Shown in pieces: positions 22,763-45,851 of a DNA stretch of 64,000 bases (positions within the stretch are counted from its first letter, which is position 1; each line of letters opens with the position of its first letter). The notes beneath the pieces are model-generated. The model saw nothing but the letters and a program-made list of their open reading frames with translations. It ran no database searches and had not been told where the DNA came from. The DNA comes from Candidatus Gastranaerophilales bacterium (GTDB lineage Bacteria > Cyanobacteriota > Vampirovibrionia > Gastranaerophilales > Gastranaerophilaceae): the NCBI GenBank assembly GCA_944327225.1, contig CALVGZ010000009.1, positions 1 through 64,000 on the forward strand. The letters are read 5' to 3'. Made by a program: the position numbers and the translations under genes.

Positions 22763-23401
22763 ATGAAGGTAAACAGCGTTAACAAGCAACAAAATTTTAA
22801 AGGTTCTTTTGGTGAAAAAACCGTTGGTTTTATCACCAAACATCCTGCTTTATTGGCTACTCTTGCAGGTTCTTCGGTTATTGCTCAAAAAGTTGTTATG
22901 TCATCTTCGGAAGCAACTATCGGACCTGCTATGGATATTGCGATAGGTAAAACAATATCAAAAATTACTAACGAAAAAGACGGAAGGACAAAGCAAAGTT
23001 CAAAAGTTCAAGCAGTTAGAACATTTTCGCAAGCGGTTGGCGGAACTATTGTAGGTGTTATAATAAGAGGTATTTGTATAGCGGGGGCTACTGCTTTATG
23101 TATGAAAGCGGGTGGAAAAATAGGTGAAGAACTTGGTAAAAAATTCCCTGATAAATTTGCAAGTATTGTAAACAACGGATTAACTAAAAAAAGTAGTGAT
23201 TATGAAAAAATATCAAATGCTTCCGCGTGGGGTAAAAATATCGGCGGTGCGGTAGCTTTAATGGTTATGTTAGTTACAAACTTTTTAATTGACGCTCCTT
23301 TTATAAATTTAATTAATAAAAATGCAACAAAGGTTGTTAAAAATATTGGTGTTAAATTTAAAAAACCTCAAGAAGATAAAAATTCAAAGGAGGTTAAATA
23401 G
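22763..23401 (+). CDS. FKG-motif membrane protein A
   Basis: 212 residues, not recognised. The N-terminus is polar and carries NFKGSFG at residues 11-17, with no cleavable signal peptide. Hydrophobic, Gly/Ala-rich segments occur around 30-50, 92-118 and 158-180, and the tail is Lys-rich. The start has no ribosome-binding site; TATAAA sits at 22749-22754, so the mRNA may have little or no leader. It overlaps the next gene by one base, and the pair probably acts together in the inner membrane. Confidence 0.65.
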   Translation: MKVNSVNKQQNFKGSFGEKTVGFITKHPALLATLAGSSVIAQKVVMSSSEATIGPAMDIAIGKTISKITNEKDGRTKQSSKVQAVRTFSQAVGGTIVGVIIRGICIAGATALCMKAGGKIGEELGKKFPDKFASIVNNGLTKKSSDYEKISNASAWGKNIGGAVALMVMLVTNFLIDAPFINLINKNATKVVKNIGVKFKKPQEDKNSKEVK

Positions 23402-24144
23402 TGGCTCAAGATATTCAAAAAACAACTAATGGAATATGGAAATTATTGGAAGCTTGCACACCTAATGCTGAAAAAGCCGGTAATGCTTTGTTATATTTAA
23501 ATGCGATAGGTATGTTATTTGCTGCTGCGAGTAATACAACCGCCACTGCAATAGATAAAAACACTCGTCCCGAAGATAAGAAATTTTTAATTCCTGCAGG
23601 TGTTGCAACCGGTGTTGCAAACATTGGTATATATTTTTTAATGACAAGAAAAATAATTAAATACCTTGAAAAATCAGCACTTAGCTATGTTGATAAAATG
23701 AAAGACAACGAATTAGTGGCAAAAGCGACTGATTTTGCTAAAAGAGCTGTTAAAAAGGCAGAGAAAGGTATTTTTAAAAAACCTGAATTAGCAGTATCGA
23801 TGAAAAAAGATTTTTTTAACGGTGCGGATATTAATGGCACAATAACAGAAGCTGCTAAAAATGCTTATAAAAATAATGTAAAAGCTGCCGCAAGCGTTGC
23901 GGGTGCTTTTGCCGGTGCGGTTATAGGTTGTTCTATTTTAACACCTATTATAAGAGATGTCAGTGCATATTTTGTTCAAAAGAGGATGGAAAAAAATAAT
24001 CCGGAATTAAAGAACAAACCTCATAAACCCTATTATGATCCAACACGTGTCGGAACCGGCATTTATAACAGAAAACAGCCTTTATCCATGACAAGTTTTA
24101 TGACTTTTACAAATAAAAATTTGAATGGTAACATGAAGATTTAA
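23401..24144 (+). CDS. membrane protein B, partner of the FKG protein
   Basis: 247 residues, start GTG overlapping the TAG of the upstream gene. AAGGAGGTT at 23386-23394 is one of the strongest ribosome-binding sites in the window. Hydrophobic segments lie near residues 28-45, 60-82 and 160-185 (AAASVAGAFAGAVIGCSILT). The tail is polar with YYDPTRVGTGIY. Not recognised. The style resembles the 39785-43296 membrane proteins. Confidence 0.65.
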   Translation: MAQDIQKTTNGIWKLLEACTPNAEKAGNALLYLNAIGMLFAAASNTTATAIDKNTRPEDKKFLIPAGVATGVANIGIYFLMTRKIIKYLEKSALSYVDKMKDNELVAKATDFAKRAVKKAEKGIFKKPELAVSMKKDFFNGADINGTITEAAKNAYKNNVKAAASVAGAFAGAVIGCSILTPIIRDVSAYFVQKRMEKNNPELKNKPHKPYYDPTRVGTGIYNRKQPLSMTSFMTFTNKNLNGNMKI

Positions 24145-32511: not shown

Positions 32512-33993
32512 ATGTTTGAATTTTTTAAAAATATTGCGGAAAAAAATGCGTGTCATTTATCGGGGGTATGCTCAGTTCATCCCAGCGTTAATTCCTTGTA
32601 TGAATTGCTTTTAAATGAAGTAAGAGAAATAGCTTTTTATTTGGTAAAATTAAATGAATTTAAAATATCAAATAAAGAAACAACAGCTTTTTTAATAGAG
32701 GTTTTATCTATTTTTTTAATAAATACAAGTTATAATCAAAAAAAATATATAGAACTTTTTAAAAGATTAAATTCATATAAAAAAGAGTCAAAAGATGTAT
32801 ATGTAAAATATTGTAGTAATAATCAGCTTCCTTGTGAAGTTATTAATTCAAATTTTGAAATAAGTGATAATATTTCAATAAATGAATTGATTGAGTATTC
32901 GCAAAATAATATTGTGGCAAGACAAAAAAATTGTGATAAAAAGAAGTTTAGATTATTTGAACTTATTACAATTTTTGCAAGACTTGCAGCTATTGATATT
33001 GTAAAAATTAAAAAATTTGAACAAAATTTTAATGATTTTGATTATGAAATTGTGAGATTTTTTGCTTTAACAAACGGATATTCGATTAGAGACGAAAAAA
33101 TTGTAAGAAGAATTATTGAATTTTCATCTTCTGCATTAAAAATTCATGAAAAACTTTTTAATATTTACAGAGAAAAATTCGGTAATAAAGAAAATGCCTC
33201 TGTTAAAATCACTCCCTCTTTAGGTAAATGTATTCTTGTTTCGGGTGATGATTTTGACGAATTAGAGAAAGTTTTGATTACTCTTGAGAATATGAAAAAT
33301 GTAGGTTTATTAGAAGATGATGTTAATGTTTATACAAATGGAGCTTTGTTTTTAGCTCATTTTTACCCGTATTTTAAAAATAATAAATTTTTAAAAGGTC
33401 ACTACGGCACTGATAATGCCGAGTATGATTTTTCTATTTTTCCAGGGTCGGTTTTAATTACTCAGAATTTTATTCAAAAAATAGACAGTTTATACAGAGG
33501 TGAAATTTATTCTAATAAAATTATTTCTTTTAACAGAGTTTTTGATATTAAAAATGATAATTATGAGCCTGTTATACAGTCTGCACTTAAACTTGAAGGT
33601 TTTTTGGATGAGGGAGAAAATAAATATATAAATGTTAGTTATGACATTAAAGACGTAAATAAAATTATTGATGAACTTGATGAAGATGAAATTGTTATAG
33701 TAACGGGCAAGGTTGATTTTGAAACTTTAAGTGAATATGAAAATAAAAAAGTTATAAATTTAAATTGTCCTTGCGAGGCGGATATTTTGCTTGAAGCCAT
33801 AAAAAAATTGAAATTGAAGAAGGTTAAAATAACATTATTTTTTGCTCAATGTAATTTGGTAAGTTTATTTTTAGCACTTTCCTTATTAAGTCAGATTGAT
33901 GAAATTTTGCTTGCAAATTGTCCGCAAGCATTAATAAATCCGCATGTAATCGAATCTTTAAAAGATGACTTTAATGTAAAAGTTATTAGTTAA
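32512..33993 (+). CDS. hybrid cluster protein (prismane)-like protein without cluster ligands
   Basis: 493 residues that align by eye to the full hybrid cluster protein/hydroxylamine reductase fold. N-terminal ACHLSGVCSVHP matches the end of the Fe4S4 motif (Cys14, Cys20 only). SGDDFDELEKVL matches GHDL, YTNGALFLAHFYP matches YTHGEMLPAH, ITQNFI matches TSNCI, VTGKVDF matches ACGKFRF, FFAQCNL matches WYEQKAV and LINPHVIESL matches LSPNVLNVL. Thus His, both Glu, Lys and most Cys ligands of the hybrid cluster are replaced; Cys421 may survive. Catalysis by a hybrid cluster is unlikely. No ribosome-binding site is seen before the ATG. Confidence 0.75.
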   Translation: MFEFFKNIAEKNACHLSGVCSVHPSVNSLYELLLNEVREIAFYLVKLNEFKISNKETTAFLIEVLSIFLINTSYNQKKYIELFKRLNSYKKESKDVYVKYCSNNQLPCEVINSNFEISDNISINELIEYSQNNIVARQKNCDKKKFRLFELITIFARLAAIDIVKIKKFEQNFNDFDYEIVRFFALTNGYSIRDEKIVRRIIEFSSSALKIHEKLFNIYREKFGNKENASVKITPSLGKCILVSGDDFDELEKVLITLENMKNVGLLEDDVNVYTNGALFLAHFYPYFKNNKFLKGHYGTDNAEYDFSIFPGSVLITQNFIQKIDSLYRGEIYSNKIISFNRVFDIKNDNYEPVIQSALKLEGFLDEGENKYINVSYDIKDVNKIIDELDEDEIVIVTGKVDFETLSEYENKKVINLNCPCEADILLEAIKKLKLKKVKITLFFAQCNLVSLFLALSLLSQIDEILLANCPQALINPHVIESLKDDFNVKVIS

Positions 33994-36900
33994 TTGTATA
34001 GACCGGCCATATATTTGGTTTTTATGTTTGTTTCTTTGGGAACATAGAAAGTTTCAACGGTTTCTGTAATAAGAATGGGGCTGCCGTCTTTAGATTGAAT
34101 ATTTCCATCTTTTACAATGTATGTTTTAGGGTCATCAACAAATTTTTGTCCTTTATATATTTTTCTTTTAAGTTCAGTTCCTTCTTCTAAAGGGCAATTA
34201 TTTGATTTATCTTTTATAGGGATGCCCGCAACATTGTATCTGCTCAAGAAATTATGAGCAGTATTTGATTGTTCTCTTCTTGTGACATTATTATTTGTTA
34301 TAACGCTTATTGTTCTGGAACCTTTTTCATCATATTTAAATATTGGCCATAAATCAACACTTTCTTTTCCCGAAGGACTGTTAGGGTTCAATTGATCAAT
34401 TATTCTTAATAATGTTGCAAAATTGTTATTTGAATTATCAATTTTTAAGTTTTGAGTTAAGAATTTTTCGTATTCTTCTTTATTTTGTGCTTTTGATTTA
34501 ATTATGTCTACTATATTGTTAAAATCTACATTTTGTGCTTGTGCATATTTTTGTATTTGTTCTCTGAAGTATAAAACCGCACCGGGATGGACATTTTCAA
34601 TTGCACTCGTATATTTAAGAGAAATTGGAAAACCGTTTCTGATTGCACTTAAGCCGGTTTCTCTGTATAGACCCGATATGGCGTTCATTTTTTTGTAATA
34701 GTCTTTGTATTCGGGTTTTTCCTTCATTTCTCTTGGTGCTTGGTTACGGTTTTGAACATGCATATTTTTTGAGCTTGATTCCCAACCTGTTTGAGCAAAA
34801 TTTGTGCCGAAATACATTGTAGGAGTTCCCATTATTGCATTCATTACTTCCCATAAATCTTCTTGTAATTTTAGGGAGTCTTTTAAAATGTAATGATGTA
34901 ATTTCCATATTTCAGCTTCATTTTCATAACCGGCATTTTTAAATAGGTCTCTGATTGAAACTTCATAAGATGTAACACCAAAGGCTTCCGCTTTTTTGAA
35001 GTTTGGTTTTGATGAGTCGTTATCTTTGCCGTTAACAAGATTTTTTAGGGAAGCTATCAGGGCATTTTTCTTGTTGTTATCATTTGAATAAAGCTCGTTA
35101 ATTGCTTTTTCCATCATTAATCCTACTGCTGCAGCTTTACCTGAGATATTTTTATAATCTTTTCTTCCGGTTAGAGCGGTAATTGCTTCTTTTTGTTTAT
35201 CGGATGAATCTTCAACGGTAGTTTTTGAAAATAATCCCATATCCAAAGGCAAAGTATGCAATAAACGCGGTTTATCGTGGTTATCTGTGAACATGTGGGA
35301 TAATATTACGGAATTAGGCTGGAAAGCTGATGCAAAGCTTTCCATTCTGTTTTTTAATTCAATTATATTTCCTGCACTATAGCTTTTATTTGTACCGTTT
35401 TCGGGATCAACTCCTATAAATGCGGATAAGTTATTAAAATATGCATCATAGTTTGAACTTGTTGTCGCCCCTATTTTGTTTAAAAATTCAACTTCTTTTA
35501 AATATGGCAGTTGATTTTCGTGAATTTTTCTTTCTTTGGGTGTCATTTCCCAAAAAGCCTTTAAAAGTTTTGGATCAAAAAGTTCTTCAGGCATATCATT
35601 GTTTTTATTGGCAAAAAACCATAAATCGGTTATTTCTGCAATTATATATGGAGCGGGATTGTATTTTTTAACGTTATTAATAAATTTAGTCCAAAAATCT
35701 TCAACACCGGGAATATTATCTGTTCCTTCCCAAATTGCTTTGTAGTCTGCTTTTTTATCTCTTACTGCATCTAAATCTCCTATATCTTTGGCTGCGTCAA
35801 ATCTCCAGTTAAGACCTGCTTTTCCTTGTATAACAATGCTTTCAGCTAATTTGAGGTCTTCTAAGCTTATATTTTGCAGTTGTTTTTGCATTTTTTGCTT
35901 AATTTCTGCGGCATTTTCTGCACTGATTCTGTGTCTTATTTTTGAGATTACTTTTCTTCTCTCTTCATCGGGAGTACTTTCTTTATTTGCTTTTAGTGAA
36001 TTAAGAGAAACATTTTTTAAAAGGTCTAGATTTATTGTTCCGTCTTTATCAATTGCTTCGGGACACATTGCACCGACTAGAATATTTTTTATTATTATAG
36101 GTGCATATAATTTGGTTACATAAGTTTTATATTCCGTATTTTGTTTGTAGTTTCCGGGTATTGCTTCATTTATTGCGTTGTTAACTATATTTAAAATATT
36201 TTCTAATGTACCTTTGGATAGAAATTCTTTATTAAATTGCGGTTGGGCAAAAATTGCACTTAAACTTGGGTCTGTTTCTATTGATTGAAGCGGAAATTCT
36301 TTGATATATTGTTCAACTGTTTTACCTTGTTCCAGTATAAATGATTTCATTGAAGAAAGTGACTGTTTAAGTTTTTCATATTCTTTTTCTGGGATATTAT
36401 TTTGTACAGCTGTATAATCTCTTTCTTTGTCCCCCATTAATGCAGTTTTTAAAATCAAATCTGATTGTATCGTTTCTGTCCAAAAACTTGCAACCCCGTA
36501 TAAATAATTTCTTGCGTCAAAAAATCCTTTGATATTGTCTTTATTATTTGTCGGGTTGGAGAGATTCATTTTAATTATGTCCCTGTTTCCGTCCCAATAG
36601 TTAGCTCCTGATGCTTTTGATTTTGTTGTAATAACAAAATTCGGAAAAGTTAAAAAGTCATTTAAAGCACCGGATTGTTCAATATCTTCAAGAAGAACGG
36701 CTTGTTTATTTTTAAATATTTTTAATTTATTTTCATCTTCAGGGTCTATTTCAAAATAATAAGGAATTATTGAATCTTGATGAGTGACTATATCATAGTG
36801 ATTATCGGGATTCTTATCGTATGATTCAATTAATTTATTTGAATTTTGTTGTTTTTTGCTTGAAAGACGACTGTCAAAAAACTGTATATATGTTGGTTTG

Positions 36901-37847
36901 TTTTTGTCGTAGTCTTTTTGACCCGGTTTGTTGACAATTTTGACACCAAGATATTGAAGCGGTTTTATTTCTTCTTCACGACTTCTATCGGGTAAAATTC
37001 CCAAGTTTGGAGTTCCGTCAATTTTTAACATGTTATAAAAAGGCGAAGCTTTACCCCATTTTAGTACGTGTTGTACCATTGGGGATTGTAATCCCTGAGA
37101 AGTGAAAGCACCATCTGCAACGTAGCTTTTTCCACGTTTATATAATTCAAAAACAAATTCTTTAAAGTCTTCCATATTGGAACATTGATATTGATTATTG
37201 GGCCAATATTTGTGGCTTGAAATTGTGTCATTTCCTATATCAGGAGTTGAAATAATGTATTTAAAACTGTTAAGTTCGTCAGTATTTCTTAGAAGGTATG
37301 TTAAACCTTTAATGCTTCCTTTGAGTTTGTTAAAATGGTTTCTGACAAAATCAGGATCATATTCTTTTAGAGTGTTTTCAGGAGTTAAGATTGCATCTGA
37401 ATCAATGAAAGTATGATACATTGTACCGGTTTTGGGGCTTATTATATAGTTACTGTTTTGTTCAATAAGATTCATTTTAGTGCCGCCACTAAGTTCAATT
37501 GTTTTAAATTCGTCAGTAACATATCTTTCACTTTGATTTTTTGTATTTGTTATTTTGTATCTGTAAGCAAAGTTTTTTGTAAGTTCTCGAACATTATCTT
37601 GGCTTAATTCCAAAGGATTGTCGGAATTAAATTCAAGTTCCATTATATCTTCAAATTTTGGTGTATAATATTCTTTTGTATCTTCATTTTGCTTTAGTGG
37701 AATAATTTGTAAGGTTACTTTCTCTTCTTTTCTGTTAAAAGGTGGAGCAATAAATTTAAAAACAGGTCTGTTATCGGCATGATATGCGCCTTTCATACCT
37801 TTAAATTTTAAGTTGTTTTCTTTTATTTTTTTAACAGATAAATCCAT
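33990..37847 (-). CDS. very large atypical GH13 (alpha-amylase-family) protein
   Basis: 1285 residues without a signal peptide. The alpha-amylase catalytic triad is recognisable: nucleophile Asp684 (WRFDAAKD), acid/base Glu738 (IIAEITDLW) and Asp858 (TDNHDKPR). A region-I-like segment is near residue 245 (VADGAFTSQG). The span between region I and the nucleophile is about 440 residues, far more than the usual ~100. The N-terminal ~120 residues form a beta-rich, CBM-like or GH13 N-domain. Residues 13-17 read LKFKG, as in the FKG membrane proteins. It is last in a four-gene operon; GGGAAAGC precedes the ATG. Confidence 0.8.
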   Translation of the reverse strand: MDLSVKKIKENNLKFKGMKGAYHADNRPVFKFIAPPFNRKEEKVTLQIIPLKQNEDTKEYYTPKFEDIMELEFNSDNPLELSQDNVRELTKNFAYRYKITNTKNQSERYVTDEFKTIELSGGTKMNLIEQNSNYIISPKTGTMYHTFIDSDAILTPENTLKEYDPDFVRNHFNKLKGSIKGLTYLLRNTDELNSFKYIISTPDIGNDTISSHKYWPNNQYQCSNMEDFKEFVFELYKRGKSYVADGAFTSQGLQSPMVQHVLKWGKASPFYNMLKIDGTPNLGILPDRSREEEIKPLQYLGVKIVNKPGQKDYDKNKPTYIQFFDSRLSSKKQQNSNKLIESYDKNPDNHYDIVTHQDSIIPYYFEIDPEDENKLKIFKNKQAVLLEDIEQSGALNDFLTFPNFVITTKSKASGANYWDGNRDIIKMNLSNPTNNKDNIKGFFDARNYLYGVASFWTETIQSDLILKTALMGDKERDYTAVQNNIPEKEYEKLKQSLSSMKSFILEQGKTVEQYIKEFPLQSIETDPSLSAIFAQPQFNKEFLSKGTLENILNIVNNAINEAIPGNYKQNTEYKTYVTKLYAPIIIKNILVGAMCPEAIDKDGTINLDLLKNVSLNSLKANKESTPDEERRKVISKIRHRISAENAAEIKQKMQKQLQNISLEDLKLAESIVIQGKAGLNWRFDAAKDIGDLDAVRDKKADYKAIWEGTDNIPGVEDFWTKFINNVKKYNPAPYIIAEITDLWFFANKNNDMPEELFDPKLLKAFWEMTPKERKIHENQLPYLKEVEFLNKIGATTSSNYDAYFNNLSAFIGVDPENGTNKSYSAGNIIELKNRMESFASAFQPNSVILSHMFTDNHDKPRLLHTLPLDMGLFSKTTVEDSSDKQKEAITALTGRKDYKNISGKAAAVGLMMEKAINELYSNDNNKKNALIASLKNLVNGKDNDSSKPNFKKAEAFGVTSYEVSIRDLFKNAGYENEAEIWKLHHYILKDSLKLQEDLWEVMNAIMGTPTMYFGTNFAQTGWESSSKNMHVQNRNQAPREMKEKPEYKDYYKKMNAISGLYRETGLSAIRNGFPISLKYTSAIENVHPGAVLYFREQIQKYAQAQNVDFNNIVDIIKSKAQNKEEYEKFLTQNLKIDNSNNNFATLLRIIDQLNPNSPSGKESVDLWPIFKYDEKGSRTISVITNNNVTRREQSNTAHNFLSRYNVAGIPIKDKSNNCPLEEGTELKRKIYKGQKFVDDPKTYIVKDGNIQSKDGSPILITETVETFYVPKETNIKTKYMAGLYN

Positions 37848-37904
37848 AGCTTTCCCTTTTATAGTCTTATAGTTCCCTTTGGTTTGTTTTTTTTAACATT
37901 TAAT

Positions 37905-39785
37905 TTAAATATTTTGCTGCATAACATTTTCCGGATTTGATAATGTTTCAATTTCAGCATCATCAATTTCAAATACGCAAGCTCTTGAGGTGCCTAATTC
38001 AACAGTTAATGTTCCGTTTTTGTTATTTTGGAATTTACATTCTTCTCCGTATTTAGGCATTAAGTTGTTAAATTTTTGCTCCGGTTTTAAACCGGGGATG
38101 GTTATTTTTCCTCCGACAGCTTTGTTTACATTTCTGTTGCCTATAAATACAAGAGTTTTACCGTCTTTATGTCTTGCAAAAGCAATTATTTCAGGGTTAT
38201 TCGTTGGAAGAATTATAAATGAACCTTTTGTTATAACATCTTTAGCATTTTGCATATTTAATTTTGTATTGGAATTTTTATTTATTTCATTGTATTTTCC
38301 ATCTCTTAAGGAAAATGCTGTTTTAACAACATTTTCAATTTCAGGGAATTTTCCTCCCGGTTTTCTTGATTTATTAAATATATCTATTTTTCCTGTATGT
38401 ACTGTACATTCATGGTTATCAGTTTGTGTATCTTTGATTTGTGCATGAGCGTAGGGATACATATAAAAATCACCTGTTTGAGTACCATCTACCATATAAG
38501 GATTTATTTGTGGCAGCATTGCTTGTAGAATAGTCGTAAACATCACCCAAGGAGCACCACCATATAGCATTGGTGACGAGTCATCATGGGTTGCAAATGA
38601 ACCTATTAGGGTTTTTGGTTTTCCTATTTCATTATTTAAATCTATGTTTTCTTTTACATAATCATATAATTGATGAGCTTGTGTCCATTCGTTAAATATG
38701 TGATATTGACCATAGTACGCGTCAAAACCAACTTCTAAAAGTTCTTTTGGTCTATCGTACGGCATATTTAGCTGAGGTGAAGCGTCTTCATGGGTATAAG
38801 TTTCTGCGAGCCAAGCAAATTCAGGGTCTTTAGCATGTGAATAGTTGATTATTACATTCCAAAATTCGACAGGTTTTGCCCTTCCTACATCTGCTCTTAT
38901 GCCGTCGAAACCGAGTTCGACACACATATCAACATATTTTTTATGTAAATCAAGAACCGAGTCGTTTAGCTCACGAGTTTCTTCGTTTTTAAACGGTTTT
39001 AGCATTCTGATATCTTGCCAGCCTTGGGGGACTTTTTCTTTGCCGTTTGCGTCTATTGCCATCATTTCAGGATGATTTTTTGCAAAATCAACACTTCCGC
39101 AAGACGGTAAATCAAGCATTGCTTTTATATTTCTTTTGTGGCACTCTTCTAAAAATAATTTGCATTGTGCTTTTGCAACATCGGGATCGTTTTTATCCAT
39201 TTTAGTTAAGTTTTTACCCGTTAGTTGAAGATAGATTTCTTCAATTCTTTTTTTGTATTGTTCAGGTGGATTTTCATCAACAATCTCGGGGTCTATTTTA
39301 AGAAAATCCAAAGGTGAGTACAACGATCCTGCTGTACCCATTGCATTTGTTTTTCCGGGCGGGTGAATCGGAAGCATGTGCAAAGTATTAAAACCTGTAT
39401 TTTTAATTTCATCAAGTCTTTCTATTGCATTTATTAAGTTTCCTGATTTTTCATCACCTTGAATTAATTCGTTTCCGTCGGTATCTTGAGCGTTCATTGT
39501 TCTGACAATTACGGCTAAAATCTGAGCTTCATTGTTTAAAAACATCGATTTTAAATTATTTTTATATTCTCCTGTTTTTTGTGTCGTTGGTGTTATTTCA
39601 GTTGTTTTTGTCGTTTGGAGAATATTTTTTGTTTGAGCTAAAACCATTTCCTTTAAAAGAGGAGAATAAGTTGTTTCATCTGGTACAAGAGTTGTTTGTA
39701 CCGTTTGCTTTTGTGCCGGTTTTGGTTGATTTGGTTTAATTTTTAATGTTTGTGCCAGTATCGGACTAATGGGTCTGTTTATCAT
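37905..39785 (-). CDS. atypical GH13 (alpha-amylase-family) protein
   Basis: 626 residues, no signal peptide. The first ~75 residues are Pro/Gln/Thr-rich. The barrel starts near residue 90 and carries MLPIHPPG, region I (AMLDLPSCG, about 222-230), nucleophile Asp299 (DGIRADV), acid/base Glu328 (WLAETY) and His400-Asp401 (ATHDD). A C-terminal beta domain follows. DTDGNELIQGDE at 101-112 resembles a Ca-binding loop. It probably acts on alpha-glucans; subfamily unclear. The ATG overlaps the stop of the 39785 membrane gene by one base. Confidence 0.88.
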   Translation of the reverse strand: MINRPISPILAQTLKIKPNQPKPAQKQTVQTTLVPDETTYSPLLKEMVLAQTKNILQTTKTTEITPTTQKTGEYKNNLKSMFLNNEAQILAVIVRTMNAQDTDGNELIQGDEKSGNLINAIERLDEIKNTGFNTLHMLPIHPPGKTNAMGTAGSLYSPLDFLKIDPEIVDENPPEQYKKRIEEIYLQLTGKNLTKMDKNDPDVAKAQCKLFLEECHKRNIKAMLDLPSCGSVDFAKNHPEMMAIDANGKEKVPQGWQDIRMLKPFKNEETRELNDSVLDLHKKYVDMCVELGFDGIRADVGRAKPVEFWNVIINYSHAKDPEFAWLAETYTHEDASPQLNMPYDRPKELLEVGFDAYYGQYHIFNEWTQAHQLYDYVKENIDLNNEIGKPKTLIGSFATHDDSSPMLYGGAPWVMFTTILQAMLPQINPYMVDGTQTGDFYMYPYAHAQIKDTQTDNHECTVHTGKIDIFNKSRKPGGKFPEIENVVKTAFSLRDGKYNEINKNSNTKLNMQNAKDVITKGSFIILPTNNPEIIAFARHKDGKTLVFIGNRNVNKAVGGKITIPGLKPEQKFNNLMPKYGEECKFQNNKNGTLTVELGTSRACVFEIDDAEIETLSNPENVMQQNI

Positions 39786-42292
39786 TATTTAGTACCTCCT
39801 GACTTTTCATTTTCGGGAAATTCTTTTTTGATTTTTCCAAAGAAGGGTTGAGCTAAAAGTGTCACTGCTACAAGCCCTATTGCCATTGGAGCAAAGATTT
39901 TCATCCATGTTTTATTATTATATATTCTTGTTATAAAGCTTTTCGTTTGATCAGCTAAGCTGTTTGCTTTTAATGTTTCCTCAGTAAAGTTTGTACCGCT
40001 TGGAATCTTTTTTAATTCTTCTATAATATTTAGTATTCCGGGCATAGCTTTTTCTTCTGTTTTAAATACTTCTTTATTAAATATTGCATTAATTAAATTT
40101 TGATATGTTTGTTTATTAGCTATGTGACCGTTATTAAATGTTGTTGAAATAGTGCCGTTGTATAGAAGATCTCTTGCTGCTTTAATTCCTTCTTCTCCAA
40201 ACGGTTCAAACATGCCTTCTTTAACTCTACGTTCAAAGTTTGCACAAATTAAGGCTTTTGCTCTTGCAAAATCTATATTTGTTTTTTTGTTCTTTAAATA
40301 TTTTGAAAGTTGATTAAATAAATGTCCTCTGCTTTCTTTTCCGCCTAATATTTCGCTGGTTATGGCTTGAGTTGTGCCATTTCCGCCTAATATTTCTGAA
40401 TATTCATTATTTGTAGGCGTTATATTAAATATTTTCATTATTGTTGATGTATCTGCAAGTTTTTGTGCAGCTTCTTTTTCGACTTGACTAAAACCGCCTA
40501 AGTTTAAAAATTCTACGGAAGTTCTTTTGGGAGCATTTGGACAACTATTACAATAGTCTTCAAATATTTGCATTAACCAAGTTTTTCTATCCGGACTTGC
40601 GTCAAGAGGTTCGATGTACCATTTGAAATCATCAAAAAATTTTTTATCTTTAAGAAGCGGGAAATCTTGTCCGAAAGCTTCCTTTAACCCTTTTTCAAAG
40701 GATTCAGAATCTTGTTTTCCGCTGTTAATAAATTTTGATGTCAGATCAACAAATTTTTGTAGTCCTTGTTCATATTCGGTATCTCTATTTATAATTTCTA
40801 TGATTTGTTTTTGTATAATACTTTGTGTAAAATCAGAGGTGTTTTGTTTGATGGATTTTAAATCTTTATAATCTTTAATTCCGAGTTTTTCAGCAAGTTC
40901 TTTCATCATTTTATTATATTGTCTTGTATCTACCGATTCGGATTTTGAACCTGCTATGGGATTTAGTAAATCAAGATATGCTTTTATTCTTCCTCTTATT
41001 TTTGAGAATACGTTGGTATTGTAGTCAACAATTGCTTTGAAGAAGTTTTCATTATTTGTTTTTAATGAGTTGAAAATTTCATTTTCTTGATTTTGTGTAA
41101 GACCGTATTCTTTTAATATTTCTTTTAGTTTTTGAGGTGTTCCATTGTCACCCATACGTGTTGCTATGTTTCTGATATTATCGTCTGATAATGCAGGGAT
41201 ATCTGATTTCGCTCCGCCCAAAGTAAGCTGAAGCGGATTTATTTTCTTTGGTTTTTTAAGTGCTTCTTCCAGATTTTCAATTGTACTTGTTTCATCGTGG
41301 AGTCTTATTAAGGTTTTTGTCAGTTCGGATGATTTTAAATCTGATAACGGAGTTTTATCATCCGGATTTTTTAATTTATCTAAGATATCATCAATTTTAA
41401 ATACTTCAACAAGTTTTGTGTAGAAATCCTCCGTTAATTCTTTATTTGAGTATTCATTAAGTAATGCTGTTAATTTTTTTGCATTACCTAAATCTTGTTG
41501 TTTTAGAAAATAAGCATTTAAAGCTTCGTCGTCGGATAAAATTTTATTTGCTTTTTTGAAATCATGTTCAATAACGGCATTTTCAACTTTTGGTTGAACA
41601 TAATTTCCGATAAGTGCTGTCATTAAAGGTGTCGAAAAACCTGCTGTTGCCATCCAAAGAGTTCTGTTTTGAAGTGCGGTTTTTTGTCTTTTTCTGAACC
41701 ATTTTTCTTCGGCATTTTTTTCGTTTGGATCAATTCCCATTCTTTTCATTTCACGTTCAATTTGTTCTTTGGAATGGATGCCTGTCGGAATAAATTGATT
41801 GTCAAGATATAAGTCTTTTTTATCACCCTGAGCACTTATATATTTTTCGCCTATCGGGAAACCATGGATTATTCTTGCAGGAAGATTTATGAATAATTTT
41901 GGCCAAAGTGCCATGGATGCAAAGAAGGTTGTGCCGCCTATGAATTGCATGATTGCTTCTGTTTTTGTTTTTGCATGTGTTGCTAAGAACGTTGCGATAA
42001 GAAGTGCCCCGGCTTTCATGCCAAGGTCATTTATTCTTCCTAAATTGTTATCGTTCATTTTACCTGTTTTAGTTGCTTTAAAGAAATTTTTTCCGTCATT
42101 ATAGTTATCTTTAATGGCTGATGTCACTTTTTGTATTGGATTTTCTTGAACCAATTTTGCCTTGGCTTCATTGGGCTTAACATCATTTGCGTGTTGTTTT
42201 AGATTTTCATATATCTTTTCATGGTGGTCGTTATTCGGTTGCCTATTGGCATTTAGTTGGTTTCTTAAAAAGGGGCTGATTGTATTTGTCAT
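39785..42292 (-). CDS. large polytopic membrane protein of the GH13 operon
   Basis: 835 residues, not recognised. Hydrophobic segments near 91-107, 112-138 and 211-230, plus a C-terminal one near 800-820, flank a large, mostly helical soluble part (about 235-795). The N-terminus is polar and begins with ISPFLRNQL at residues 5-13, similar to ISPILAQTL in the GH13 encoded next. It overlaps both neighbours by one base (TAATG), so all are translationally coupled. It is probably an inner-membrane scaffold for the GH13 proteins; this is inference. Confidence 0.7.
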   Translation of the reverse strand: MTNTISPFLRNQLNANRQPNNDHHEKIYENLKQHANDVKPNEAKAKLVQENPIQKVTSAIKDNYNDGKNFFKATKTGKMNDNNLGRINDLGMKAGALLIATFLATHAKTKTEAIMQFIGGTTFFASMALWPKLFINLPARIIHGFPIGEKYISAQGDKKDLYLDNQFIPTGIHSKEQIEREMKRMGIDPNEKNAEEKWFRKRQKTALQNRTLWMATAGFSTPLMTALIGNYVQPKVENAVIEHDFKKANKILSDDEALNAYFLKQQDLGNAKKLTALLNEYSNKELTEDFYTKLVEVFKIDDILDKLKNPDDKTPLSDLKSSELTKTLIRLHDETSTIENLEEALKKPKKINPLQLTLGGAKSDIPALSDDNIRNIATRMGDNGTPQKLKEILKEYGLTQNQENEIFNSLKTNNENFFKAIVDYNTNVFSKIRGRIKAYLDLLNPIAGSKSESVDTRQYNKMMKELAEKLGIKDYKDLKSIKQNTSDFTQSIIQKQIIEIINRDTEYEQGLQKFVDLTSKFINSGKQDSESFEKGLKEAFGQDFPLLKDKKFFDDFKWYIEPLDASPDRKTWLMQIFEDYCNSCPNAPKRTSVEFLNLGGFSQVEKEAAQKLADTSTIMKIFNITPTNNEYSEILGGNGTTQAITSEILGGKESRGHLFNQLSKYLKNKKTNIDFARAKALICANFERRVKEGMFEPFGEEGIKAARDLLYNGTISTTFNNGHIANKQTYQNLINAIFNKEVFKTEEKAMPGILNIIEELKKIPSGTNFTEETLKANSLADQTKSFITRIYNNKTWMKIFAPMAIGLVAVTLLAQPFFGKIKKEFPENEKSGGTK

Positions 42293-43296
42293 TATGCCAC
42301 CTCGAATTCTTTTTTAGTGTCAACTTTTGAAATCATAGTATTTGGTTTTAATTTAAATCCTATGGTCGGAATTAGCCAGGTTAATAAGGTTGCTAAAGCT
42401 GAACCTATAAGAAGTGCTTTTCCGTAGTGTTTAGAAATAAGGTTTCTGTTGTTACCTTTCCAAAGTTGTTCTACTCCTTCTTTAAGGGCGCTTAAAATGC
42501 TTTTTGGCTGTTTTAGTTTAATATTTTCAAATGATTTTTGAAAACCGAGTGCAACACCCGTTGCGGCAACAATATATTTACTTATGTTTTCCATTGCCGT
42601 TGCCCTTACTTTTACTTTTCTTATTAATGGCCAAGCTGTTTGGTTTGGTGCGTTTTGTTCTTTTTTATATCCTGCTTTTTTAAGAATCTTATCTTCAAAA
42701 GCGTAAATATTTCCATGTTCAAGTTCTCCCCATAATGCAGTTTTATCTTTTCTTGGAAAATCTGCAGAATCAAAGACTCCGGGGTATTGAATTCTGACTA
42801 ATCCTTTTTCTTGACCGTTTTCCGGGAGTTCATTTATTTTGTTTAAAAGCTTCCAATCCAAGTTAATTCCGGTTGAAGCATAAATACCTGTATGGGCAAT
42901 TTTTTTGGATAGCCATTTGCCAAGTCCGTAAAGTACAACTCCTGCACCCATTCTTTTAGCAAATTTACCTGCTGCACTGCCGTCTAAATTGTTAAATCCT
43001 TTATTTGCAAGACTATAGAGACCTATTAGCATGCCGCTTCCTATAATGTAAGGAACCATGCCTAATGAAAGATACTCATAAAAATTACTGTTTTTGGAAC
43101 CCGAAAATCCTTTTGGAAAGTAGGTAAAAATGTCATTTGTAAGCTTATGAACTCCTGCCTTAATGCTCATAAGAGGACCTTGTTTTGCAGGAATGTGAGC
43201 TTCCGTTTTGTAAATATTTTCCTTTTTATTTTCTTTTGAGACATAATAGCCTATTTTAGGCAGACTATCAACACTAGGATTTTGAACTTGTTGCAT
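42292..43296 (-). CDS. polytopic membrane protein, first gene of the GH13 operon
   Basis: 334 residues from the ATG at 43296, which has GGGGTAAAA just upstream; a TTG at 43311 is possible but has no ribosome-binding site. Hydrophobic segments lie near residues 80-100, 115-130, 235-252 and 295-315. A soluble loop (about 140-230) contains KGLVRIQYPG and LWGELEHGNIY. Not recognised. The polar N-terminus has no signal peptide. It leads a coupled operon of two membrane and two GH13 proteins. Confidence 0.7.
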   Translation of the reverse strand: MQQVQNPSVDSLPKIGYYVSKENKKENIYKTEAHIPAKQGPLMSIKAGVHKLTNDIFTYFPKGFSGSKNSNFYEYLSLGMVPYIIGSGMLIGLYSLANKGFNNLDGSAAGKFAKRMGAGVVLYGLGKWLSKKIAHTGIYASTGINLDWKLLNKINELPENGQEKGLVRIQYPGVFDSADFPRKDKTALWGELEHGNIYAFEDKILKKAGYKKEQNAPNQTAWPLIRKVKVRATAMENISKYIVAATGVALGFQKSFENIKLKQPKSILSALKEGVEQLWKGNNRNLISKHYGKALLIGSALATLLTWLIPTIGFKLKPNTMISKVDTKKEFEVA

Positions 43297-43478
43297 TTTT
43301 ACCCCAAACAACTAAACACACATGTATATAAACAACACTAAATTGTAAATTTTGCCTTTTGTATTTAAATATTCTTTACAATTTTTAATAATTATATAAA
43401 CCGTAAAACATACACCTAATAAGCTTTTTGGTTATGACAACTATTGTCCTTTTTTATATTATTTAAACAATTAAACTA

Positions 43479-43508
43479 TTGCAAACAATATAAAAAATTT
43501 TGTACAAT
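43479..43508 (+). promoter_or_regulatory. promoter giving a probable leaderless mRNA for the STAND-like gene
   Basis: TTGCAA (43479-43484), 18-base spacer, TACAAT (43503-43508), then six bases to the ATG at 43515. There is no ribosome-binding site. Confidence 0.55.
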
Positions 43509-43514
43509 GATATT

Positions 43515-45851
43515 ATGACTCAAGGCCTTTTTCAATTTAACAGTTCTATTATAAATGAAATTTTAAATTTTGTCATATCTACTTTTGACTTACTCTACTT
43601 GGGCGGTCCCAAAGGATCAGCAAAAAGTGAAACAATCGGAAAATTAATTCCTAAACTTAGTGAAGATAATCTTGTATTTCAGCATTTTTGTTTTGAAAAT
43701 ACTGTAATTGATGATTTTTTATTAAATTTTTATGATGCTCTCAGAAGCTTTTCTATGGCTCAAAAAATTTCTTTAAAAAAATTTACAGAAGGAGATTTTA
43801 AAGAAAAAGTAAGTCATTATTTTAAAACAATTAATGCAAATTGCGTTGTTATAGTTGAGAATTTTGAAAAAATTGAAAAAAATATAGAAATAATTGATTT
43901 TTTATCTCATCTTGCTGGATATGAAAATGTCAAAATAATAATTGTTTCAAGAAATTCCGGGGCAAATCTTTTTAGATTTAAAAAAATTAAAGTAAAAACC
44001 ATTGAAATTGAGCAGATTGATAAAAAAGAATTTCAATCAAAACTTTCCGTATTATCTGAGGTTTTGGATGAAGAAACAAAAGAAAGATTTTATGAAATTA
44101 CTGACGGGCTTGAGTTGTATTTAAAAATGGCCGTTAAATATTCAAGCATAACGGGAATAACCGTAAAAGATTTAATTAATGAATTTGAAAGAAAAAATAT
44201 GAGTCTGAGAATTGGTTTTGAAGAATTTATGGTTTTAAAGTTTGTTTCTCTGACTCCAAGTGTTTATCAAGGTCTGTTTAAAATTTTATGTACTTTGTCT
44301 CATCCCGTAAGTTTGGATTTTTTGAATTTTTATAAGTTGGGGGATGTTTCTCATATCGATTATTTATCAAAGAATTTTTTAGTAAATTTTTTTAAAAATG
44401 AAATATATGTAAAAGATTATTTTAAACAATATATAGTTAAAACTTTTTCAATACAAGAAAAAATTACATACTATAAAAAGTTAATCGAAATTTATGAAAA
44501 AGAACTTACAAAAAGTCCAAAAGATAGATTAATCAGGCTTTCAAGGGAATCTATAAGAAAAGAAATAGAACTTTTTAATTCTTTAATGCCCGCCATAAAT
44601 TCAACGGATAAATCACAAAAAACATTTTCATATTTAGGAATAGCGGCATCTAATTGGCATGATGAGAAATTGCATCAAAAAACAAAATTACAGGAAAAAT
44701 TGGAAAAAATAAAAGAAAGAAAAAAAGTTTTATCAAAAGAAGAAAACGAACTTTTAATCAAGAAAAGGTTGGAAGATTCGGGACAAAAATCTTTAACTGA
44801 TGAAAATAAAGAAAAAAACAGATTATTTATAGTGAGTTTAATAAACAGTTCCAGAGAATTTTCTAAAGAATACAGATATAATGATGCCTTATCCGAACTT
44901 AAAAGAGCTTATGATGTTGATTTTGAAGGTGAATTTAGAATAGAAATACTGTCTTTAATTGCAAAAAATCATGAATATTTAAATGAGTATAAAATTGCTG
45001 AAGAATATTATGAAACCGCTTTAGATATTGCACTTAAAACGGGTGATTCAAGAAAATGTGAGCTTGAATTTTTTATTGCAAATTGTCTGAAAAATCTATA
45101 TAAAATTGATGATGCAAAAGAAAGATTTAAGTCTATTGCAAATAATGAGAATAATTCAAAAAGTTATAGGGTCCGTTCTTATATTGAAATAGCACAAATT
45201 GATGAAGCCGACTCCAAGATGGAAAGTGCTATTAAGAATTACGAAAAAGCATTGTCATTTGCTTTGGGCAAGGATAAGGAGTTAACGGCAAAAATTTATT
45301 ATAAATTGGGTGTTTTATATGATGAAAATCAAGATTTTGAAAATGCTATTAAATATTATAGAAAAAATTATGCAATCAGTTCTGAAAAAAATGAAAACAA
45401 GTATTATTCAGCCTCTTTAACAAATCTTGCTTTGATATATATGGACTTGGAAGATTACAAGGAAGCAATAGATTATTTGAAGTTGGCTTTACTTTATGAT
45501 AGTGAAATGAGTGATTATGAAAATATGTATTTTTCACAAAAAGAACTTGCAAAATTGTATGCCGGAATTGATGAAGTATCTGCAATAGGTTATTTTAAAC
45601 AGGCTCTTTCCTCTGCCCAAAAATTAAATGATGATTTCAAAATTGCTCTTGTTTATTTTGAAGCAGGTGAGTTTTATTATGATAAGGGAAATGACGAAAA
45701 AGCATTGGTTAATTTTTTATGTTCTAAGTCTGCTTTGAAAAATAATACTAATGATGAAAATATTTTAAGAATAAATCAAAGAATTAAAGACATAAAAATG
45801 CGTCTTGATAAGATTAGTTTTAATTCAATTATGGAAAAATATGATAAATAA
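43515..45851 (+). CDS. STAND-like ATPase with TPR domain
   Basis: 778 residues from the ATG at 43515; TTG at 43500 is an alternative. The N-terminal ATPase-like domain (about 5-280) has a P-loop variant, GGPKGSAKS, with Ala where Gly usually precedes Lys. It also has a Walker-B-like VVIVENFE and a winged-helix-like end. A charged linker (about 360-425) precedes at least seven TPR-like repeats (about 440-770). The plan is that of STAND proteins such as MalT, but no DNA-binding or effector domain is present. It is divergent from the GH13 operon and overlaps rsmG. Confidence 0.7.
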   Translation: MTQGLFQFNSSIINEILNFVISTFDLLYLGGPKGSAKSETIGKLIPKLSEDNLVFQHFCFENTVIDDFLLNFYDALRSFSMAQKISLKKFTEGDFKEKVSHYFKTINANCVVIVENFEKIEKNIEIIDFLSHLAGYENVKIIIVSRNSGANLFRFKKIKVKTIEIEQIDKKEFQSKLSVLSEVLDEETKERFYEITDGLELYLKMAVKYSSITGITVKDLINEFERKNMSLRIGFEEFMVLKFVSLTPSVYQGLFKILCTLSHPVSLDFLNFYKLGDVSHIDYLSKNFLVNFFKNEIYVKDYFKQYIVKTFSIQEKITYYKKLIEIYEKELTKSPKDRLIRLSRESIRKEIELFNSLMPAINSTDKSQKTFSYLGIAASNWHDEKLHQKTKLQEKLEKIKERKKVLSKEENELLIKKRLEDSGQKSLTDENKEKNRLFIVSLINSSREFSKEYRYNDALSELKRAYDVDFEGEFRIEILSLIAKNHEYLNEYKIAEEYYETALDIALKTGDSRKCELEFFIANCLKNLYKIDDAKERFKSIANNENNSKSYRVRSYIEIAQIDEADSKMESAIKNYEKALSFALGKDKELTAKIYYKLGVLYDENQDFENAIKYYRKNYAISSEKNENKYYSASLTNLALIYMDLEDYKEAIDYLKLALLYDSEMSDYENMYFSQKELAKLYAGIDEVSAIGYFKQALSSAQKLNDDFKIALVYFEAGEFYYDKGNDEKALVNFLCSKSALKNNTNDENILRINQRIKDIKMRLDKISFNSIMEKYDK

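Follow-up and report, generated by a model that had tools for sequence, protein, structure and literature searches.

GH13 enzymes are organised at the cell envelope of gut bacteria by the Sus system (SusG). The Ruminococcus bromii amylosome also organises GH13 enzymes at the envelope of a gut bacterium (PMC9112005), and a further GH13 group, the rBAT/4F2hc heavy chains (GH13_34/GH13_35), is named in PMC11239784. The locus described here recalls rBAT/4F2hc by analogy only, in that a GH13-fold protein is paired with polytopic membrane partners; rBAT/4F2hc are animal proteins of amino-acid transport, whereas GH626, the enzyme of the present pairing, has no transmembrane segment and retains intact catalytic residues. 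In Sus and the amylosome the exported enzymes act outside the cell, whereas GH626 and the second enzyme, GH1285, have no signal peptides and the integral membrane partners are unrelated.

Among solved structures, the GH626 profile matches many GH13 enzymes, the nearest being AmyB of Thermotoga neapolitana (GH13_48, PDB 4gkl; E 4.5e-26), which shares with it the catalytic triad, a GxR preceding the nucleophile and the stretch around the HPE motif. Next come the Thermotoga maritima maltosyltransferase (1gju; best E 6.5e-22) and GlgE, the alpha-1,4-glucan:maltose-1-phosphate maltosyltransferase (best E about 1.6e-15), for which the best-stretch similarity spans only about 130-200 barrel residues, and the activity of GH626 is a predicted one. 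Unlike that of AmyB, the gene for GH626 shares its operon with those of two dedicated membrane proteins. GH1285 is nearest to the neopullulanase/cyclomaltodextrinase type (GH13_20 type; 2wc7, 2z1k; E 9.7e-21), the similarity lying in the first part of the barrel with a best stretch that spans profile positions 140-279 only, and it differs from that type in the spacing of regions I and II (Table 1), in TS for NH in region I and in being about twice as long.

The Gastranaerophilales, a widespread and mostly uncultured group of gut bacteria related to the cyanobacteria, have a defining physiology that is poorly known. The locus was found in the genome of a Candidatus Gastranaerophilales bacterium (1.73 Mb, 29 contigs, 99.8 % complete), in a stretch of 64,000 nucleotides referred to here as the window. 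The operon is order-wide and uncharacterised, and joins an apparently new membrane-protein family to atypical GH13 enzymes, with a function that we infer. Features of the window are listed in Table 1.

Table 1 Features of the operon and of other genes in the window
Feature	Position	Strand	Length (aa)	Description
M334	42292..43296	-	334	Small membrane protein; first operon gene, from ATG at 43296
M835	39785..42292	-	835	Membrane protein; N-terminal region resembling M334, mostly helical domain of ~570 aa, hydrophobic segment at the C-terminus
GH626	37905..39785	-	626	GH13-type enzyme; signal peptide absent, catalytic residues kept, atypical in conserved regions I and IV
GH1285	33990..37847	-	1285	GH13-type enzyme; no signal peptide, conserved regions I and II separated by ~430 residues
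Reductase-like gene	32512-33993	+	493	Prismane/hydroxylamine reductase family protein, score well under NCBIfam cut-off
TPR protein gene	43500-45851	+	783	Divergent from operon; N-terminal P-loop-like motif, C-terminal TPRs
Hydrophobic pair, first gene	22763-23401	+	212	Overlaps the second gene by 1 base
Hydrophobic pair, second gene	23401-24144	+	247	

The first-pass annotation had described four packed minus-strand genes, the first three joined by one-base overlaps, and both points were borne out: open reading frames of the four lengths are present, and TAATG is read in the sequence at 42292 (M334/M835) and at 39785 (M835/GH626). A gap of 57 bases separates GH626 from GH1285. The M334 frame extends past its ATG to a TTG at 43311. 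All four are real coding genes, with full-length relatives within the genus of the window. Promoter-like sites in the sequence were not above chance (39 found, 42.7 expected). The reductase-like gene lies on the opposite strand, and its 3' end has four bases in common with the 3' end of GH1285. The 783-aa protein on the other side of the operon resembles PorW/SprE through its TPRs only.

Among 58 relatives, M835 was found in 50 genomes, M334 in 49, GH626 in 52 and GH1285 in 49. Open reading frames were mapped at 20 loci, and nearly everywhere that they share a contig M334, M835 and GH626 follow one another in this order, on one strand and with almost no gap; this was seen in families f1 (the family of the window) and f3-f7, six families in all. 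One genome (G053) has the order GH626, M334, M835, with the three genes still clustered and co-oriented. A further 80 loci were collected by searching public genomes with the GH626 alignment, and the relatives fetched are labelled as Candidatus Gastranaerophilales, as Melainabacteria or just as gut MAGs. The trio is intact in 73 of these, with gaps mostly of -8 to +11 bases, and the remaining loci, several of which are short contigs, miss a recognised piece. All four genes are absent from two genomes (G046 and G051), although genomes of the same genus carry them. A reading in which there is no shared machine, the membrane pair being structural and unrelated and GH626 merely co-expressed, draws on the lack of any functional clue in the membrane proteins; the tight gaps and the order kept across six families, the clustering that survives rearrangement in G053 and the joint absence of the four genes from several lineages argue against it, and we consider it distinctly improbable.

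Each of the 130 genomes sampled from the family of the window matched the M334 profile, nearly always in single copy, as did the sole other member of the order in that draw; no match was obtained in five f9 genomes or in the remaining sampled members of the phylum. Within the sampled genomes the trio is restricted to the Gastranaerophilales. Presence of M334 in all sampled genomes of the family, together with the order-wide trio, makes M334-M835-GH626 look like a core feature of the order. Its occurrence throughout the sampled main family and its absence from the sampled sister lineages point to a shared trait of the Gastranaerophilales.

Conservation of the whole four-gene order, which the annotation had put up for testing, held order-wide for the first three genes but not for GH1285, which is unlinked in most of the family of the window. 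GH1285 adjoins the trio mainly in the genus of the window and in several other families, is head-to-head with it in one genome (G049), and in most of f1 maps to another part of the genome; it was found in 113 of 117 genomes of that family. Among 35 diverse genomes, M334 and GH1285 occur together in 20 and are both missing from 12; M334 occurs without GH1285 in two (G031 and G053, 75 % and 88 % complete) and GH1285 without M334 in one (G050, 66 % complete). Fisher p-values for this co-occurrence (1.3e-6 for the 35 genomes and 3.8e-4 within the order) are too small because the genomes are related. In G117 and G251, M334 is likewise present and GH1285 absent. The tie of GH1285 to the trio is not strict, and is one of near-joint presence and absence.

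M334 has no match in Pfam, NCBIfam or PDB sequences and M835 none in Pfam and NCBIfam, whether searched singly or as families. Whole models gave no Foldseek match in the PDB at E<0.1 (best E 0.14 for M334 and 0.28 for M835), and the best VIA-align Z scores (6.0 and 7.4, respectively) are over parts of the models and uninformative. The AlphaFold (AF2) model of the M334 of the window has a pLDDT of 73 and that of an M835 homologue, which is largely helical, a pLDDT of 84. The earlier view that neither membrane protein corresponds to a known transporter agrees with these searches of sequence families and by Foldseek, absence of a match not being proof, and M334 and M835 appear to constitute a new membrane-protein family. 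When order-wide alignments were compared by hhalign, M334 paired with ~200 residues at the N-terminus of M835 (E 7.9e-13, probability 97.8), and reversed, column-shuffled and unrelated polytopic (UppP) controls scored 0.1-0.4. With the narrower alignments of family f1 the score drops to 16.8, and the signal is thus tied to the alignments of the whole order. As a line of evidence independent of hhalign, the M334 profile picks up M835 in several genomes (E 6e-6 to 4e-4), and M334 and the N-terminal region of M835 are taken as paralogues on this sequence similarity.

Both proteins had been called polytopic, and hydropathy gives four peaks in each; the description must be qualified, however, in that the second M334 peak is charged (3-4 K/R on average) and M835 is mainly a helical domain of ~570 residues between its third and fourth peaks. 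Positive-inside charge bias gives no side for this large domain, and under a strict four-span count with a cytoplasmic N-terminus it would fall outside. Elsewhere in the window, the hydrophobic pair of 212 and 247 aa has no Pfam family above cut-off and only a very weak match to the M334 profile; the 212-aa protein starts MKVNSVNKQQNFKG, which resembles the conserved N-terminal motif of GH1285 considered below.

Catalytic triads had been recognised in both GH13 proteins, and they are fully conserved. In GH626, R297, D299, E328, H400 and D401 are invariant in 20 order-wide sequences, and 18 of 20 family members match PF00128; the GH626 and GH1285 of the window give no PF00128 match individually. 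With its nucleophile, acid/base and transition-state residues, its RxD and its family similarity, GH626 is by sequence a GH13 enzyme. The absence of signal peptides reported for both proteins was also confirmed, neither having an N-terminal hydrophobic segment. GH13_48 is defined by NH ending region I, NHD ending region IV and L-[DN] ending region V, and a Cys precedes the nucleophile in 81 % of GH13_48/49, Ala being an accepted minority variant (PMC11239784). GH626 has order-wide DLPSC[AG]S in place of NH, a nearly invariant Ala298 (GIRAD) in place of the Cys, THDD rather than NHD in region IV, and DIRM[FL] against DVVDFD of AmyB, with no L-[DN] (region V boundary set by eye). Membership of GH13_48 was considered and GH626 was not filed there, because these features of regions I, IV and V are missing. 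The alignment of the 1gju maltosyltransferase also shows loss of the usual region I NH and its histidine, which may hint at glucan transfer rather than hydrolysis, as may the altered regions I and IV of GH626.

A paralogue of GH626 is encoded in the same genome (L160:5331-6878, G000:C3, minus strand); this 515-aa protein has the DLPSCGS signature too but carries a clear signal peptide. Second GH626-like matches are also present in other f1 genomes, and none was seen in the f3-f7 genomes examined, except for a fragment in G048.

GH1285 has invariant R682, D684, E738, N856 and D858 in 28 sequences, with H857 in 96 %; its profile matches GH13 structures, and PF00128 is found in 6 of 13 members. 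Its catalytic residues, RxD and family similarity likewise place it by sequence among GH13 enzymes. The otherwise variable N-terminal tail carries a motif, [ILV]xF[KSQ][GA], in 27 of the 28 GH1285 sequences and in 37 of 75 M334 sequences of family f1. As a general sorting signal this motif found no support: it occurs 6 times against 3.7 expected in 345 proteins of the same genome (280 kb of stretches, the window and a few GH13 regions), and 89 of 500 shuffles score as high.

Dedicated export, in which M334 and M835 would translocate the signal-less enzymes or anchor them to act outside the inner membrane, gains from the secreted paralogue of GH626, whose signal peptide implies that this enzyme group can act outside, from the four-span count that would put the large M835 domain outside, and from the N-terminal motif kept in GH1285. 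An energising component is absent, however, the fold matches are uninformative, GH1285 is unlinked in most genomes and the motif is not significantly enriched in the genome sample, and we find this reading distinctly improbable.

The reading that we prefer, with a probability of roughly 40 %, is that the operon specifies a membrane-tethered, probably cytoplasmic complex active on alpha-glucans. The paralogues M334 and M835 would together form an inner-membrane scaffold, and GH626, made from the same coupled message, would be a retaining GH13 enzyme that stays cytoplasmic, its substrates being alpha-1,4-glucans or maltodextrins that the scaffold holds; GH1285 would act in the same pathway as GH626, from the same or another locus. 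Since both enzymes are of the GH13 type with intact catalytic residues, an alpha-glucan or a maltodextrin is the probable substrate. We infer a physical complex and its cytoplasmic side, as well as the substrate and the choice between hydrolysis and glucan transfer. If the enzymes are alpha-glucan-active, the operon would represent a mode of membrane-associated handling that resembles no described system found, and two uncharted GH13 groups would be added.

An ability to use or to store glycogen has been reported for Gastranaerophilales (PMC4040986, PMC5877343), and the genome of the window carries GlgA and GlgX-like genes; both observations would suit an internal complex that anchors glycogen or maltodextrin at the membrane for remodelling. 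The distribution of GlgA speaks against this: two genomes (G040 and G045, 99 % complete) have the operon and no GlgA above cut-off, six others (G035, G041, G043, G046, G051 and G052) have GlgA without the operon, and in the loci examined none of the genes next to the operon was recognised as a glycogen gene. The operon was tried as a glycogen module, and the phylogenetic profile of GlgA gave no support. With operon and GlgA uncoupled in both directions, dedication of the operon to the cell's own glycogen is unlikely, and internal glycogen handling is accordingly judged quite unlikely. The membrane-organised alpha-glucan machine proposed in the first-pass annotation is thus retained as far as the conserved operon and intact GH13 residues are concerned, though probably not as one dedicated to endogenous glycogen.

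Independence from GlgA and restriction to one bacterial order would also fit a role in envelope glycan assembly, in which an alpha-glucan built or trimmed by the GH13 enzymes becomes part of the envelope (a lipid-linked or surface glycan) and M334/M835 are the membrane platform. This is a live alternative because, in 65-68 of 80 family loci, the genes directly upstream on the same strand are uppP (of the BacA family), one of the 6-pyruvoyl-tetrahydropterin synthase type and a KdsC-like HAD hydrolase; a KdsD-type SIS-CBS protein lies further upstream in 57. The uppP/Kds-like neighbours are, however, absent upstream in the genus of the window and, as mapped, in f3-f7, so that they may be mere local synteny. 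The unit moreover includes neither a glycosyltransferase nor a flippase, and the KdsC/KdsD calls are based on sequence resemblance and Pfam domains only. Envelope glycan assembly is on balance unlikely.

The most far-reaching interpretation, which we regard as doubtful, would make M334 and M835 a paralogous membrane platform or compartment surface of new fold that is lineage-defining, with GH13 enzymes of unassigned subfamily carrying out an alpha-glucan reaction unlinked to ordinary glycogen synthesis. None of the four proteins matched PADLOC (anti-phage defence) or PHROGs (phage) models at E<=0.01.

Downstream of GH626, 42 of the 80 loci encode a protein family of ~129 aa for which Pfam gives no match; its members, for example L111:3752-4141 (minus strand), have a Met/Pro-rich tail and one hydrophobic segment.
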